Assembly: GCA_019244415.1 (NCBI GenBank)
Contig: JAFASN010000080.1
Span: forward strand, 1-64,000
Length of the DNA stretch: 64,000 nt
Reading direction: 5' to 3'
From: Verrucomicrobiota bacterium
GTDB taxonomy: Bacteria > Verrucomicrobiota > Verrucomicrobiia > Chthoniobacterales > UBA10450
In this document: piece by piece, positions 29,372 to 32,307 of the stretch
How positions within the stretch are numbered: the first letter of the stretch is position 1
Layout: each line of letters begins with the position of its first letter
Position numbers and translations under genes: made by a program
Notes under the pieces: model-generated
The model's database searches: none
Seen by the model: the letters and a program-made list of their open reading frames with translations, nothing else
What the model was told of the DNA's origin: nothing

Positions 29372-30340
29372 ATGAGTTTCATCCGAGTACGACGCGCGCT
29401 GTTCATTGTCGGCGGAGCAATGTTGCTCCTGCTGGCGCAGCCGGCTTTTGCCCGCCAGCCGGCGCCGCGCTCGTCCAGTCCGCAGTTCGAAGCGCTCCCG
29501 CTGGACCGTTCGGCGCAAAATCACCTCATCGTCCGGGCGTTCATCAACGGAAAACCGGCACGTCTCGCCGTCGATACCGGCGCGCCGGTCAGTGCCATCG
29601 CGGCCAATCGTCGCGTACATTTCGGCGTTCCCTTCATTTCAGACACGTCGAAGTTACCGCCGCGCATTATTATCAATGGCGCCTTCAGCTCTGTGGGAAT
29701 TGCCAAAACCTTGCGCATTGGCGCGCTCACGCTGGTGGACGAGCCGATGGTCGCCATTAATCTCGGCCCGGAAAGCCGCGCCGCGCGCATTCGCGGTGAA
29801 CAGGAAATCGACGGAATCCTCGGCGCCGACATTCTTTTCCCCACCCGCGCCGTACTCGATTGCCAGCGGCAGTTGCTGATTTTGAATCTTGATCCGGACT
29901 CGCAGCGAGCCACTCCGGGCGTGGATTACACCGGCCTCGCCAGCCTGCCGATCCACGTAAGCGATGGATATAACTTGTACGTTGATGGCGCGGTCAACGG
30001 CGCGCCTGGCCAGCTCCTCGTCGATACCGGCGCGTTTGCGACTTTGCTACACCGGCCGTTCGTGCAGCAAATGAAAATCCCGATGCGCCGTACGCGACTG
30101 GTCTCGGCAGGGGTGAATACGCTGCAAACGCGTGTGCAGGTTGCGCGAATACGGCGGCTGAGCGTGGGCGAAGTGAACGTTGTGGGTCACTACGTGGGTG
30201 TGATCGATCTCGCCAGCCTTCTCGGCGACCGAGTGCTTGCAGGCAAGCGCCCTGTAGTCGGCCTTCTCGGGGGCGAACTTCTACGAAGTTTGCACGGCAT
30301 CATCGATTTCGGTACGCGCCGTTTGTACTTGAAAGGTTGA
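29372..30340 (+). CDS. Exported aspartyl protease-like protein with two retropepsin-like domains
   Basis: A 322-residue protein with a signal peptide (about 1-28). It has two retroviral-type aspartyl protease half-site motifs: AVDTGAPVS with Asp68 and LVDTGAFAT with Asp218. Each is followed by a beta-rich domain with an ILGAD or LLGGE closing strand. Single-chain proteins with two D-T-G sites can form a pepsin-like bilobed active site. The periplasmic substrate is unknown. The GILGADIL and GLLGGELL repeats support an internal duplication. The gene is followed 33 bp later by the MurU-like gene in the same direction. Confidence 0.82.
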   Translation: MSFIRVRRALFIVGGAMLLLLAQPAFARQPAPRSSSPQFEALPLDRSAQNHLIVRAFINGKPARLAVDTGAPVSAIAANRRVHFGVPFISDTSKLPPRIIINGAFSSVGIAKTLRIGALTLVDEPMVAINLGPESRAARIRGEQEIDGILGADILFPTRAVLDCQRQLLILNLDPDSQRATPGVDYTGLASLPIHVSDGYNLYVDGAVNGAPGQLLVDTGAFATLLHRPFVQQMKIPMRRTRLVSAGVNTLQTRVQVARIRRLSVGEVNVVGHYVGVIDLASLLGDRVLAGKRPVVGLLGGELLRSLHGIIDFGTRRLYLKG

Positions 30341-30373: not shown

Positions 30374-31303
30374 ATGACAGACGCGTTTGTGCTCGGTGCC
30401 GGCCTGGGTACGCGCCTGCGCCCGCTCACGGACGAATTGCCAAAGCCGCTTGTGCCGATCTTTGGCAAGCCGCTGATCAGCTTTGGCTTTGACCACCTCA
30501 TCAATGCCGGCGTGCAACGATTGATTGTGAACACGCACCGGCTGCCCGGGAAATTCGGGCAAGTGTTTCCAGATCCAGTGTATCGCGGCCATCGGATCAC
30601 TTTTGTGCACGAGCCGGTTTTGCTCGGCACCGGCGGCGGGCTGCGGAATGCGGAGCGTCATTTCGAGAGCGAATCCGTGATCGTGTACAGCGGCGATATT
30701 CTGACCGATTTTGATTTGGCGCCTTTGCTGGAGGAGCACGCCCGAACCGGCAACGCCGTCACGCTTGCGCTTCGGCAAACTGAGTTCGCCCCCAGCATCA
30801 ACCTGCACAGCAATCGCGTGGAAAAAATCGGCGATGGGGCCGAGTACGACTTCGCCAACGTTTCTGTCTGGACGCGCAAGGCGATTGAATGGATTCCAGC
30901 CGGCAAACCGATGTCGTTTATTCCCGTACTTCAGCAGGCAATCGCGGACGGCCGCGCGATCGGCGGCGTGGTGGTGAATGACGGGAACTGGTTCAACATC
31001 GGTTCAGCTTCGCAGTACCTCGCCGTTCACGGCAAAGTGGCGCGCGAGAACTGGCGGCCAGCTTACCTCGATAAGGCAGAGCGATGGCCGGAGATGGTCG
31101 GCGCCGGCGCGAGCGTCGATCCGGGTACGACGCTCTCCGGGTTTTATTCCATCGGCACCGCTTGCCGCGTGGAAGCTGGTGCCAGCGTGACTGATTCTGT
31201 TCTCTGGCCGGGCGCGCGGATTGCTGCGGAAAGTACGCTGCGGAATTGTGTTGTTCGTTCCGGCAAAATAGCCGAAGGAACGCTCGAGAACGCCGTTGTG
31301 TGA
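30374..31303 (+). CDS. murU: Sugar-1-phosphate nucleotidyltransferase, MurU-like
   Basis: A 309-residue enzyme. Its N-terminal nucleotidyltransferase domain has the signature LGAGLGTRLRPLT and KPLVPIFGKP near residues 7-32, GTGGGLRNA, and VYSGDILTDFD for metal binding. The C-terminal 60-70 residues contain left-handed beta-helix-like hexapeptide repeats (GASVDPGTTLSG, GASVTDSVLWPGA). It is fused by a GTGA overlap to an AmgK-like sugar kinase. In Pseudomonas, AmgK phosphorylates MurNAc at C1 and MurU makes UDP-MurNAc, bypassing de novo synthesis. That pairing is the basis for the name. The extra C-terminal repeats are more typical of other NTP transferases, so a different sugar is possible. 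Confidence 0.72.
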   Translation: MTDAFVLGAGLGTRLRPLTDELPKPLVPIFGKPLISFGFDHLINAGVQRLIVNTHRLPGKFGQVFPDPVYRGHRITFVHEPVLLGTGGGLRNAERHFESESVIVYSGDILTDFDLAPLLEEHARTGNAVTLALRQTEFAPSINLHSNRVEKIGDGAEYDFANVSVWTRKAIEWIPAGKPMSFIPVLQQAIADGRAIGGVVVNDGNWFNIGSASQYLAVHGKVARENWRPAYLDKAERWPEMVGAGASVDPGTTLSGFYSIGTACRVEAGASVTDSVLWPGARIAAESTLRNCVVRSGKIAEGTLENAVV

Positions 31304-32307
31304 AAACAGCCTCGCTTCTTCGCCAGACGCGCTTGCGCGTGCCCGAGTTCACCGGTACTCGACCGATTGCCATCGCGCCGATCGAAAAAGGCGGATCGGA
31401 CCGGCGTTTCTACCGGATCCGATGCCCGGGCGAGCAATCGCTGATTCTGGTAAAGTACAATCTCGCGCAGGAGGAGAACCGCCATTATGTGCGCATCGCG
31501 CAGTTTCTTGCCGGACATGGCATTCATGCGCCGCGCATTTACTTCCACGACGCGGATGAGGGGCTGATCTGGATCGAGGACCTGGGTGAAACGGACCTGT
31601 TCAGTTTTCGTGATGAACCGTGGCTGGTGCGCGGCGCCTTCTACCGCTCCGCCATCGATGAAATCGCGAAGCTGCATGCGATACCCGAGGCGGAATGGTC
31701 GCAGTTGCGTGGCGAGATGCCGCCGGAATTCAACGCCGCCCTTTACCGGTGGGAGCAAAATTACTTCGTGGAAAACTGCCTCGGCCGCGTGTTTCACCTC
31801 GATGAAAGAGAGCGACGCGCGCTTGGCGCATTGCCCGCGCTGAGTGAAATTGCGGAGCAGCTTGCCGCGCTGCCCCGCGTACTCGTCCATCGCGATTTTC
31901 AGTCGCAAAACATCATCATGCGCAACGCCCAGGCGTTCCTGATCGATTTCCAGGGGCTTCGGCCCGGCGTTGCCCAGTACGATCTCGCTTCACTGCTTTT
32001 TGATCCATATGTCAGCCTGAGTACCGGCGAGCGCGAAGAAGTGCTGGCCCATTACATGGACGCGCGGGGCGACATTGCTGGCGGTGAATTCTTCCGTGCC
32101 GTTTTGCGCCTGTGCGCGATGCAACGCCTGATGCAGGCGCTTGGCGCTTATGGGTTCCTGGCGCTGGCAAAAGGTAACCGCCATTTCCTCGCTTACGTCC
32201 CGCCGGCGCTCGCCTCGCTTCGCCAAATCGTGAAGGAAATCCCCGGTCTGGAAGCGCTCGGTGCGGCGCTTGCTTCTCTGGCAGGGGATGTCGTCAGCCC
32301 CGGCTAG
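31300..32307 (+). CDS. amgK: Phosphotransferase/sugar kinase, AmgK-like
   Basis: A protein of about 335 residues of the aminoglycoside phosphotransferase (APH) fold. It has the catalytic LVHRDFQSQNIIM motif and LIDFQGLRPG, which replaces the DFG-like metal site. The start is the GTG at 31300, whose last two bases overlap the stop of the murU-like gene (GTGA). The frame is open further upstream, but the extra residues would lie inside that gene. It is most similar in character to AmgK, the anomeric kinase for MurNAc/GlcNAc in wall recycling. Substrate assignment depends on the partner gene. The end overlaps the start of the CPBP protease gene. Confidence 0.74.
   Translation: MKTASLLRQTRLRVPEFTGTRPIAIAPIEKGGSDRRFYRIRCPGEQSLILVKYNLAQEENRHYVRIAQFLAGHGIHAPRIYFHDADEGLIWIEDLGETDLFSFRDEPWLVRGAFYRSAIDEIAKLHAIPEAEWSQLRGEMPPEFNAALYRWEQNYFVENCLGRVFHLDERERRALGALPALSEIAEQLAALPRVLVHRDFQSQNIIMRNAQAFLIDFQGLRPGVAQYDLASLLFDPYVSLSTGEREEVLAHYMDARGDIAGGEFFRAVLRLCAMQRLMQALGAYGFLALAKGNRHFLAYVPPALASLRQIVKEIPGLEALGAALASLAGDVVSPG

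Follow-up and report, generated by a model that had tools for sequence, protein, structure and literature searches.

The gene under study lies in a 64,000-nucleotide stretch of a Verrucomicrobiota genome (contig JAFASN010000080.1), referred to here as the window. It encodes a 322-residue protein with two D-T-G motifs, and an earlier note on the window had described it as a retropepsin-like protein in which two active-site halves, centred on Asp68 and Asp218, are carried by one exported chain. Both sites were found, both halves belong to a single open reading frame, and the start of the protein resembles a signal peptide (Table 1). Judged by eye and by hydropathy, the N terminus consists of basic residues, a hydrophobic run, and A-F-A at residues 25-27; the protein is thus probably exported and may reside in the periplasm. 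The note had also pointed to two similar closing strands, LGAD and LGGE. Both stretches are present as the ends of the ILG and LLG hydrophobic-hydrophobic-Gly motifs, but the wording was loose, as they are modelled as a short strand followed by a helix. Upstream of the protease gene are two divergent amino-acid permease genes. Downstream, a gap of 33 bases separates the protease gene from that of a MurU-like nucleotidyltransferase, which is followed by genes for an AmgK-like kinase, a Rce1-like membrane protein, an MBL-fold protein (on the other strand), and a tail-specific protease.

Table 1. Features of the protease gene and its adjacent gene pair, in window coordinates.
Feature	Position	Strand	Basis
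Protease gene, 322 aa, ATG start	29372..30340	+	ORF, Pfam domains, homologues
Signal-peptide-like N terminus (residues 1-27, A-F-A before presumed cut)	29372..29452	+	Putative; sequence, hydropathy, low pLDDT at start
Domain 1, first retropepsin-type half (residues 39-175)	29486..29896	+	Pfam, model, half alignment; borders approximate
D68-T-G, first half of predicted catalytic dyad	29573..29581	+	D in 63/63 rows
Flap-like beta-hairpin, domain 1 (residues 98-116)	29663..29719	+	DSSP of model; putative role, from position
Hydrophobic-hydrophobic-Gly motif, domain 1 (ILG, 149-151)	29816..29824	+	G151 in 63/63 rows
Domain 2, second retropepsin-type half (residues 189-322)	29936..30337	+	Pfam, model, half alignment; borders approximate
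D218-T-G, second half of predicted catalytic dyad	30023..30031	+	D in 62/63 rows, T and G in 63/63
Flap-like beta-hairpin, domain 2 (residues 238-265)	30083..30166	+	DSSP of model; lower pLDDT in block 241-250; putative role, from position
Hydrophobic-hydrophobic-Gly motif, domain 2 (LLG, 298-300)	30263..30271	+	G300 in 63/63 rows
MurU-like nucleotidyltransferase and AmgK-like kinase, side by side	30374-32307		Both far under NCBIfam cut-offs

Each half carries the D-T/S-G and hydrophobic-hydrophobic-Gly motifs of a clan AA retropepsin-type domain. PF13650 (Asp_protease_2) scored 68.5 bits against a cut-off of 24.3 and PF13975 (gag-asp_proteas) 54.1 bits against a cut-off of 28.2, each matching two stretches of the protein, while the NCBIfam model TIGR02281 (clan_AA_DTGA) reached 34.1 bits, under its cut-off of 57.95. 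At E up to 1, where the HMMER filters remove most matches above about 0.1, none of the five Pfam matches was to a model of the pepsin family A1; by Pfam, the protease lies outside that family. PF20729 (PE-PGRS_C) gave no match to the window protein, whether at E up to 0.01 or up to 1, and matches three of the 63 proteins aligned below, all of which match both PF13650 and PF13975. The halves were also compared with one another. Local alignment of residues 39-178 with residues 189-322 gave a BLOSUM62 score of 88, whereas 500 shuffles averaged 29.5 (sd 5.0, maximum 49), and a profile of the N halves aligned with a profile of the C halves over 133 columns at E 6e-35. By these sequence comparisons, the two halves are homologous and align end to end.

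A search for homologues, proposed together with the earlier reading, turned up a family. Protein matches at E up to 1e-3 were present in 40 of 58 near genomes (own included), with a match of 52-74% identity in 27 of the 57 others. Profile searches matched 84 of 197 genomes of the order (own counted, E up to 1e-8) and 36 of 194 genomes drawn from the phylum (E up to 1e-5). The window genome (G000; C9, C47, C80, and C121) itself holds further Asp_protease_2 matches, including a tandem paralogue, L002, at 30% identity. From the close and order-level matches we aligned 63 complete or nearly complete proteins (alignment A2), 20 of them close ones, with the window protein among them, while the other 43 share 21-32% identity with it. 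We omitted fragments, copies that were masked or frameshifted (e.g., L006, L020, L021, L026, and L048), near-duplicates, and many further matches. In A2, Asp68 and Gly151 are invariant, position 69 is Thr (53 rows) or Ser (10 rows) throughout, and Gly70 is present in 62 of the 63 rows. In the second half, Thr219, Gly220, and Gly300 are invariant and Asp218 is found in 62 rows, with Glu in the remaining one (L146). The D-T-G motifs, on whose conservation the earlier reading depended, were not lost in this alignment. Furthermore, the gene is under purifying selection, with dN/dS values for six orthologue pairs of 0.10-0.17 in four and 0.07-0.08 in the two pairs that include the window gene, for which dS was saturated.

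This conservation bears on whether the protein is a protease or a non-catalytic, peptide-binding pseudo-protease that has retained the fold. For the latter speak the five of 71 surveyed tandem loci in which one motif is missing, the Glu at position 218 in one of the 63 rows, and the absence of activity in the structural study of mycobacterial PE_PGRS16, as told in PMC6819658. Because of the substitution and the missing motifs, some relatives are probably inactive, and because the PE_PGRS16 study saw no proteolysis, the fold alone is no proof of activity. For the window family, however, a pseudo-protease is quite improbable, as even rows with as little as 21% identity show almost no variation at the two Asp residues, at the Thr/Ser and Gly that come after each, or at the glycines of the two hydrophobic-hydrophobic-Gly motifs; this is the pattern of a kept active site.

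AlphaFold2, run without templates on A2, returned a monomer model with a pLDDT of 91.3 and a pTM of 0.85; nine residues fell below 50, eight of which are residues 1-8. We compared the model by VIA-align with the 999 chains ranked highest by Foldseek, and the figures given here are from the best 50 of these 999. The top row was 9IY9 (Z 20.9, 258 residues, 3.6 Å, model residues 36-321, 17% identity). The other 49 were A1-type enzymes (renins, pepsins, plasmepsins, and others; Z 16.3-17.3, 237-249 residues, 3.5-4.2 Å, model residues about 33-322), including pepsin 1pso (Z 16.3, 239 residues) and renin 5sy3 (Z 17.2, 244 residues). Foldseek agreed and also matched 4eqj, a single-chain form of HIV-1 protease, with a TM of 0.71 by target length. 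Since a half is about 140 residues long and about 240 residues are aligned, the alignments span much of both halves, which fixes the relative placement of the lobes as in pepsin. The predicted model therefore has the A1-type build, two lobes in one chain that superpose on pepsins over both, although AlphaFold2 was exposed to many pepsins in training and may favour this arrangement. The model of a relative, L053 (pLDDT 82.3, pTM 0.81), has the same lobe arrangement and matches 9IY9 (Z 21.5), renin (Z 17.5), 4eqj (Z 16.9, 195 of 200 residues), and PE_PGRS16 4EHC (Z 16.5, 228 residues); 15 of the 25 rows in its alignment come from the wider family of the window protein, which leaves the two models partly dependent on each other. 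In a viral structure library, the 50 matches listed were mostly one-domain retropepsins of viruses and phages, together with two Pandoravirus proteins and one klosneuvirus "pepsin-like" protein.

The model is consistent with the earlier proposal of a covalently joined retropepsin-like pair resembling a pepsin-like bilobal enzyme: the predicted monomer has the pepsin lobe arrangement. The proposal had been staked on the two sites not facing apart in such a model, and, as far as superposition tells, the model follows bilobal enzymes over both of its halves. On a rival reading, the two sites would not face each other within the chain, each half would pair with another chain, and the active form would be a dimer of tandem chains. 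The exported bacterial retropepsin RloA is indeed described as a homodimer (PMC12239564). We nevertheless judge this arrangement very improbable for the window protein, given the confident monomer model and given that 9IY9, its nearest solved relative by fold among the best 50 of the 999 chains, likewise carries, by sequence, two D-T-G halves in a single chain.

Our favoured interpretation is that the window protein is an exported, monomeric, two-lobed aspartic endopeptidase of clan AA with one shared active site, a reading that we consider probable, with catalysis as a prediction. Two retropepsin-type halves, duplicated within one chain, would form a covalent pseudo-dimer and pack in the pepsin arrangement, such that Asp68 and Asp218 would share one site at the lobe interface. 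This Asp dyad would activate a water molecule, and a peptide bound in the cleft would be cut. The enzyme may serve to process or turn over proteins of the envelope or proteins that are imported. In each half, DSSP analysis of the model assigns a long hairpin after the D-T-G motif (residues 98-116 and 238-265), which suggests that the modelled enzyme has two flaps, like a retropepsin. An Ala directly follows both D-T-G motifs, a residue described as characteristic of retroviral rather than pepsin-type enzymes (PMC12239564), and because of this trait our guess, by analogy, is that the pH optimum may be near neutral. As for the earlier suggestion of an authentic bacterial pepsin-like protease, "pepsin-like" fits the build; Pfam gives no A1 membership, and "protease" describes a predicted activity.

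The closest known system is 9IY9, the best fold match among the best 50 of the 999 chains. It is titled a "putative endopeptidase" from Bacteroides fragilis in the PDB (released 2025-08-06), and its single chain, an "Exported protein," has by sequence two D-T-G retropepsin-type halves, the second weakly matched. It differs from the window protein in coming from another phylum and in its length of 420 residues, with roughly 150 more before the protease part. We found no paper naming 9IY9 in the open-licence literature. A second likeness is the mycobacterial PE_PGRS16/PecA (4EHC), an aspartic protease exposed at the cell surface that has its D-T-G and D-S-G motifs in a single chain. PecA is reported to be active (PMC6819658), so single-chain aspartic proteases exported by bacteria are not new to the literature. 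PE_PGRS16/PecA is set apart by its PE domain and type VII secretion, and PF20729 is absent from the window protein; 4EHC was not among the best 50 of the 999 chains for the window model, though the L053 model matched it. Besides the work on mycobacterial PecA, we found no description of a single-chain, tandem retropepsin-type architecture from bacteria in the open-licence literature.

Other relatives have a single domain. RloA shares the domain type, export, and the Ala after D-T-G (PMC12239564). However, RloA, Lpg0085, and Ddi1 are described as single-domain dimers, with RimB grouped with RloA and Lpg0085 as the same domain type, and ApRick (RC1339) as a single-domain protein without the canonical dimer. 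When the A2 profile was compared with the PDB, the best match was of the Ddi1 type (1e-10), 9IY9 was third (2e-9), and ApRick reached 6e-8. Amuc_1434 of Akkermansia, which we compared by its description, is reported with D-T-G, LLG, and one hydrophobic-hydrophobic-Gly motif, and with pepstatin-sensitive activity (PMC6982040). Toward the pepsins and shewasins of A1, the likeness is the bilobal single chain with one Asp per lobe, with Z 16-17 over both lobes of the window model, and sequence reaches A1 weakly (A2 to polyporopepsin 1wkr, E 4e-4; a further profile, A3, to plasmepsin II, E 2e-4). The lobes of pepsin, by contrast, are described as alike in motifs only, and bacterial A1 homologues as having no signal peptides (both PMC2761423), whereas the window halves are alike along their length and the protein has a signal-peptide-like start. 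With respect to classification, two prokaryotic families of the clan are characterised in PMC2642776 as single-domain proteins of about 120 residues, and pepsin representatives are mentioned there for several prokaryotes. A structural classification from 2024 (PMC11313796) distinguishes one bilobal family from three active as dimers, and the available part of its text names no single-chain retropepsin-type class.

According to the earlier note, bacteria usually have this fold as a dimer of one-domain proteins. Of 194 genomes sampled from the phylum, 72 contain PF13650. We took a census of the 86 loci of the PF13650 list outside G000, G020, and G022, counting two short ORFs of one G182 contig as one. 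The HMM used to count domains was built on 90 half-domains, part of which came from these loci themselves. The census found 71 tandem loci, 14 single ones, and one (L245) missed by the HMM; close kinship among many of the genomes means that the 86 loci do not count as independent cases. D-[TS]-[GA] is present in both domains of 66 of the 71 tandem loci (64, together with L198 and L217, which appeared as three pieces in the script output). In the other five one motif is missing, though L203, of the same size as L198 and L217, is perhaps a miss of the script. Tandem forms also occur in Acidobacteriota, in Pseudomonadota, and, as a solved structure, in Bacteroides.

A search of plasmid records with the relative L053 returned 12 records. 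In 10 of them a single place spans 80% or more of the tandem query; these are Acidisarcina, two Polymorphobacter, Roseomonas, three Novosphingobium, two Klebsiella, and one Clostridioides. An aspartic or aspartyl protease name is given to 10 of the 12 places. We read five plasmid copies; L159, L161, and L162 have two D-T/S-G motifs, L163 (Klebsiella oxytoca) has D-T-G and a D-S-G that the pattern missed, and the second half of L160 (Polymorphobacter) reads D-L-G. The query P0001 gave no match in the plasmid records, and neither did the relative L110. Because tandem forms are common in the phylum and already named on plasmids, the premise of one-domain dimers fails here and the window gene is one more routine case within an annotated group, ordinary for its phylum. 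The earlier reading was thus right on the build and wrong on the rarity.

We then considered the number of fusions. A half-domain tree was built from 90 rows (42 N halves, 42 C halves, and 6 single domains) and 143 columns, few for so many rows. In this tree, 43 N and C halves of the wider family of the window protein form one group (support 84, not starred), with L157_C outside; the two halves of L096 fall together (95, starred), and the halves of L053 and L055 group with one more half (97, starred). The starred branches require at least three changes of the N label. A tree in which all 42 N halves were held together against the 42 C halves was rejected (p-AU 0.0015, quick tree). In a more careful tree of 19 proteins, which were picked after the first tree had been seen, the single-origin constraint was likewise rejected (p-AU 6e-5), with support of 100/100 (starred) for L096 and 92/79 for L053/L055. 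Because a single origin for all tandem families is rejected in both trees, at least two fusions among them are likely, as far as these short, long-branched sequences, in which gene conversion between halves is possible, can indicate. L096 looks like a separate fusion, its protease halves being sisters on the tree (100/100). By eye, the 494-residue L096 protein (L096:1132-2613, plus strand) seems to be a unit of leading domain and protease domain duplicated whole.

The tandem type with genus code g33, which we guess to be "Akkermansia-like," was a candidate for a further origin, separate from that of the window family. This was dropped, as the N halves already fall together (64/76, not starred) once L096, L053, and L055 are left out; these sequences are compatible with one shared fusion for both. 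A comparison of the A2 and A3 profiles was discarded as circular, since A3 contains A2 rows. The broadest claim, that bacteria built the pepsin architecture from retropepsin-type domains several times, with at least two to three separate tandem duplications in Verrucomicrobiota alone and some halves still easily aligned, is tentative, and we rate it at somewhat less than an even chance.

Pepsin has long been inferred to derive from a retropepsin-like half that was duplicated and fused. The attendant chicken-and-egg problem is set out in PMC2761423. The window family keeps similarity between its halves along the whole half, and single-domain forms coexist with it in the same phylum. Should the repeated fusion on these trees be true, the step assumed for the birth of pepsin would be open to study at different ages in living lineages, and direct tests could be made of early symmetric stages, of the stability of the monomer, and of how symmetry was lost. 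It is this repeated fusion that is worth following, the individual gene being ordinary for its phylum.

Finally, the gene neighbourhood was surveyed. MurU and AmgK genes side by side are the arrangement of a cell-wall recycling pathway. The protease might accordingly be linked to the cell wall and act with its MurU-like and AmgK-like neighbours in the recycling of cell-wall sugars. The MurU and AmgK models match the two neighbours at E 5e-34 and 1e-20, and Pseudomonas mutants without all three RloA proteases are described with cell-shape and antibiotic phenotypes, as well as osmotic and biofilm defects (PMC12239564). The scores are, however, far below the NCBIfam cut-offs (118 of 250 and 74 of 550 bits), and the best NCBIfam match of the MurU-like gene is a mannose-1-phosphate guanylyltransferase model (4e-44, also under cut-off). 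For 52 family genomes with a strong protease match, we recorded the best nucleotidyltransferase match. Protease and nucleotidyltransferase are on one contig and strand within 1.75 kb in 41 of the 52, 14 of them within 160 bases and 27 at 447-1742; some matches are partial, so that the gaps are upper bounds. G006 was counted by a second, partial copy on the nucleotidyltransferase contig, and partial copies in G357 and G384 were omitted. The linkage is absent in 11 of the 52; the protease gene ends at the contig end in G011 and G031, and the pair is some 30 kb apart on one contig in G015. The neighbourhood is thus old. An opposite-strand gene with a start like MAEETVWRG lies in nine of 11 chosen wide gaps (L004, L005, L006, L007, L008, L011, L019, L026, and L027), which therefore are not crossed by one transcript; in the wide gap of L033 there is another gene, on the same strand. 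Since a common transcript is not general, we draw no function from the neighbours, and an operon-based function was dropped; a joint role in cell-wall recycling is unlikely.

In the window, the small MAEETVWRG-type gene is not at that place, the gap being 33 bases. L006 and L026 seem to be a single locus present in two collections. In this orthologue (L006:5001-5909 and L026:1423-2331), the match ends at residue 285 and the altered ending is identical in both collections, which looks like either an assembly error or a decaying copy.
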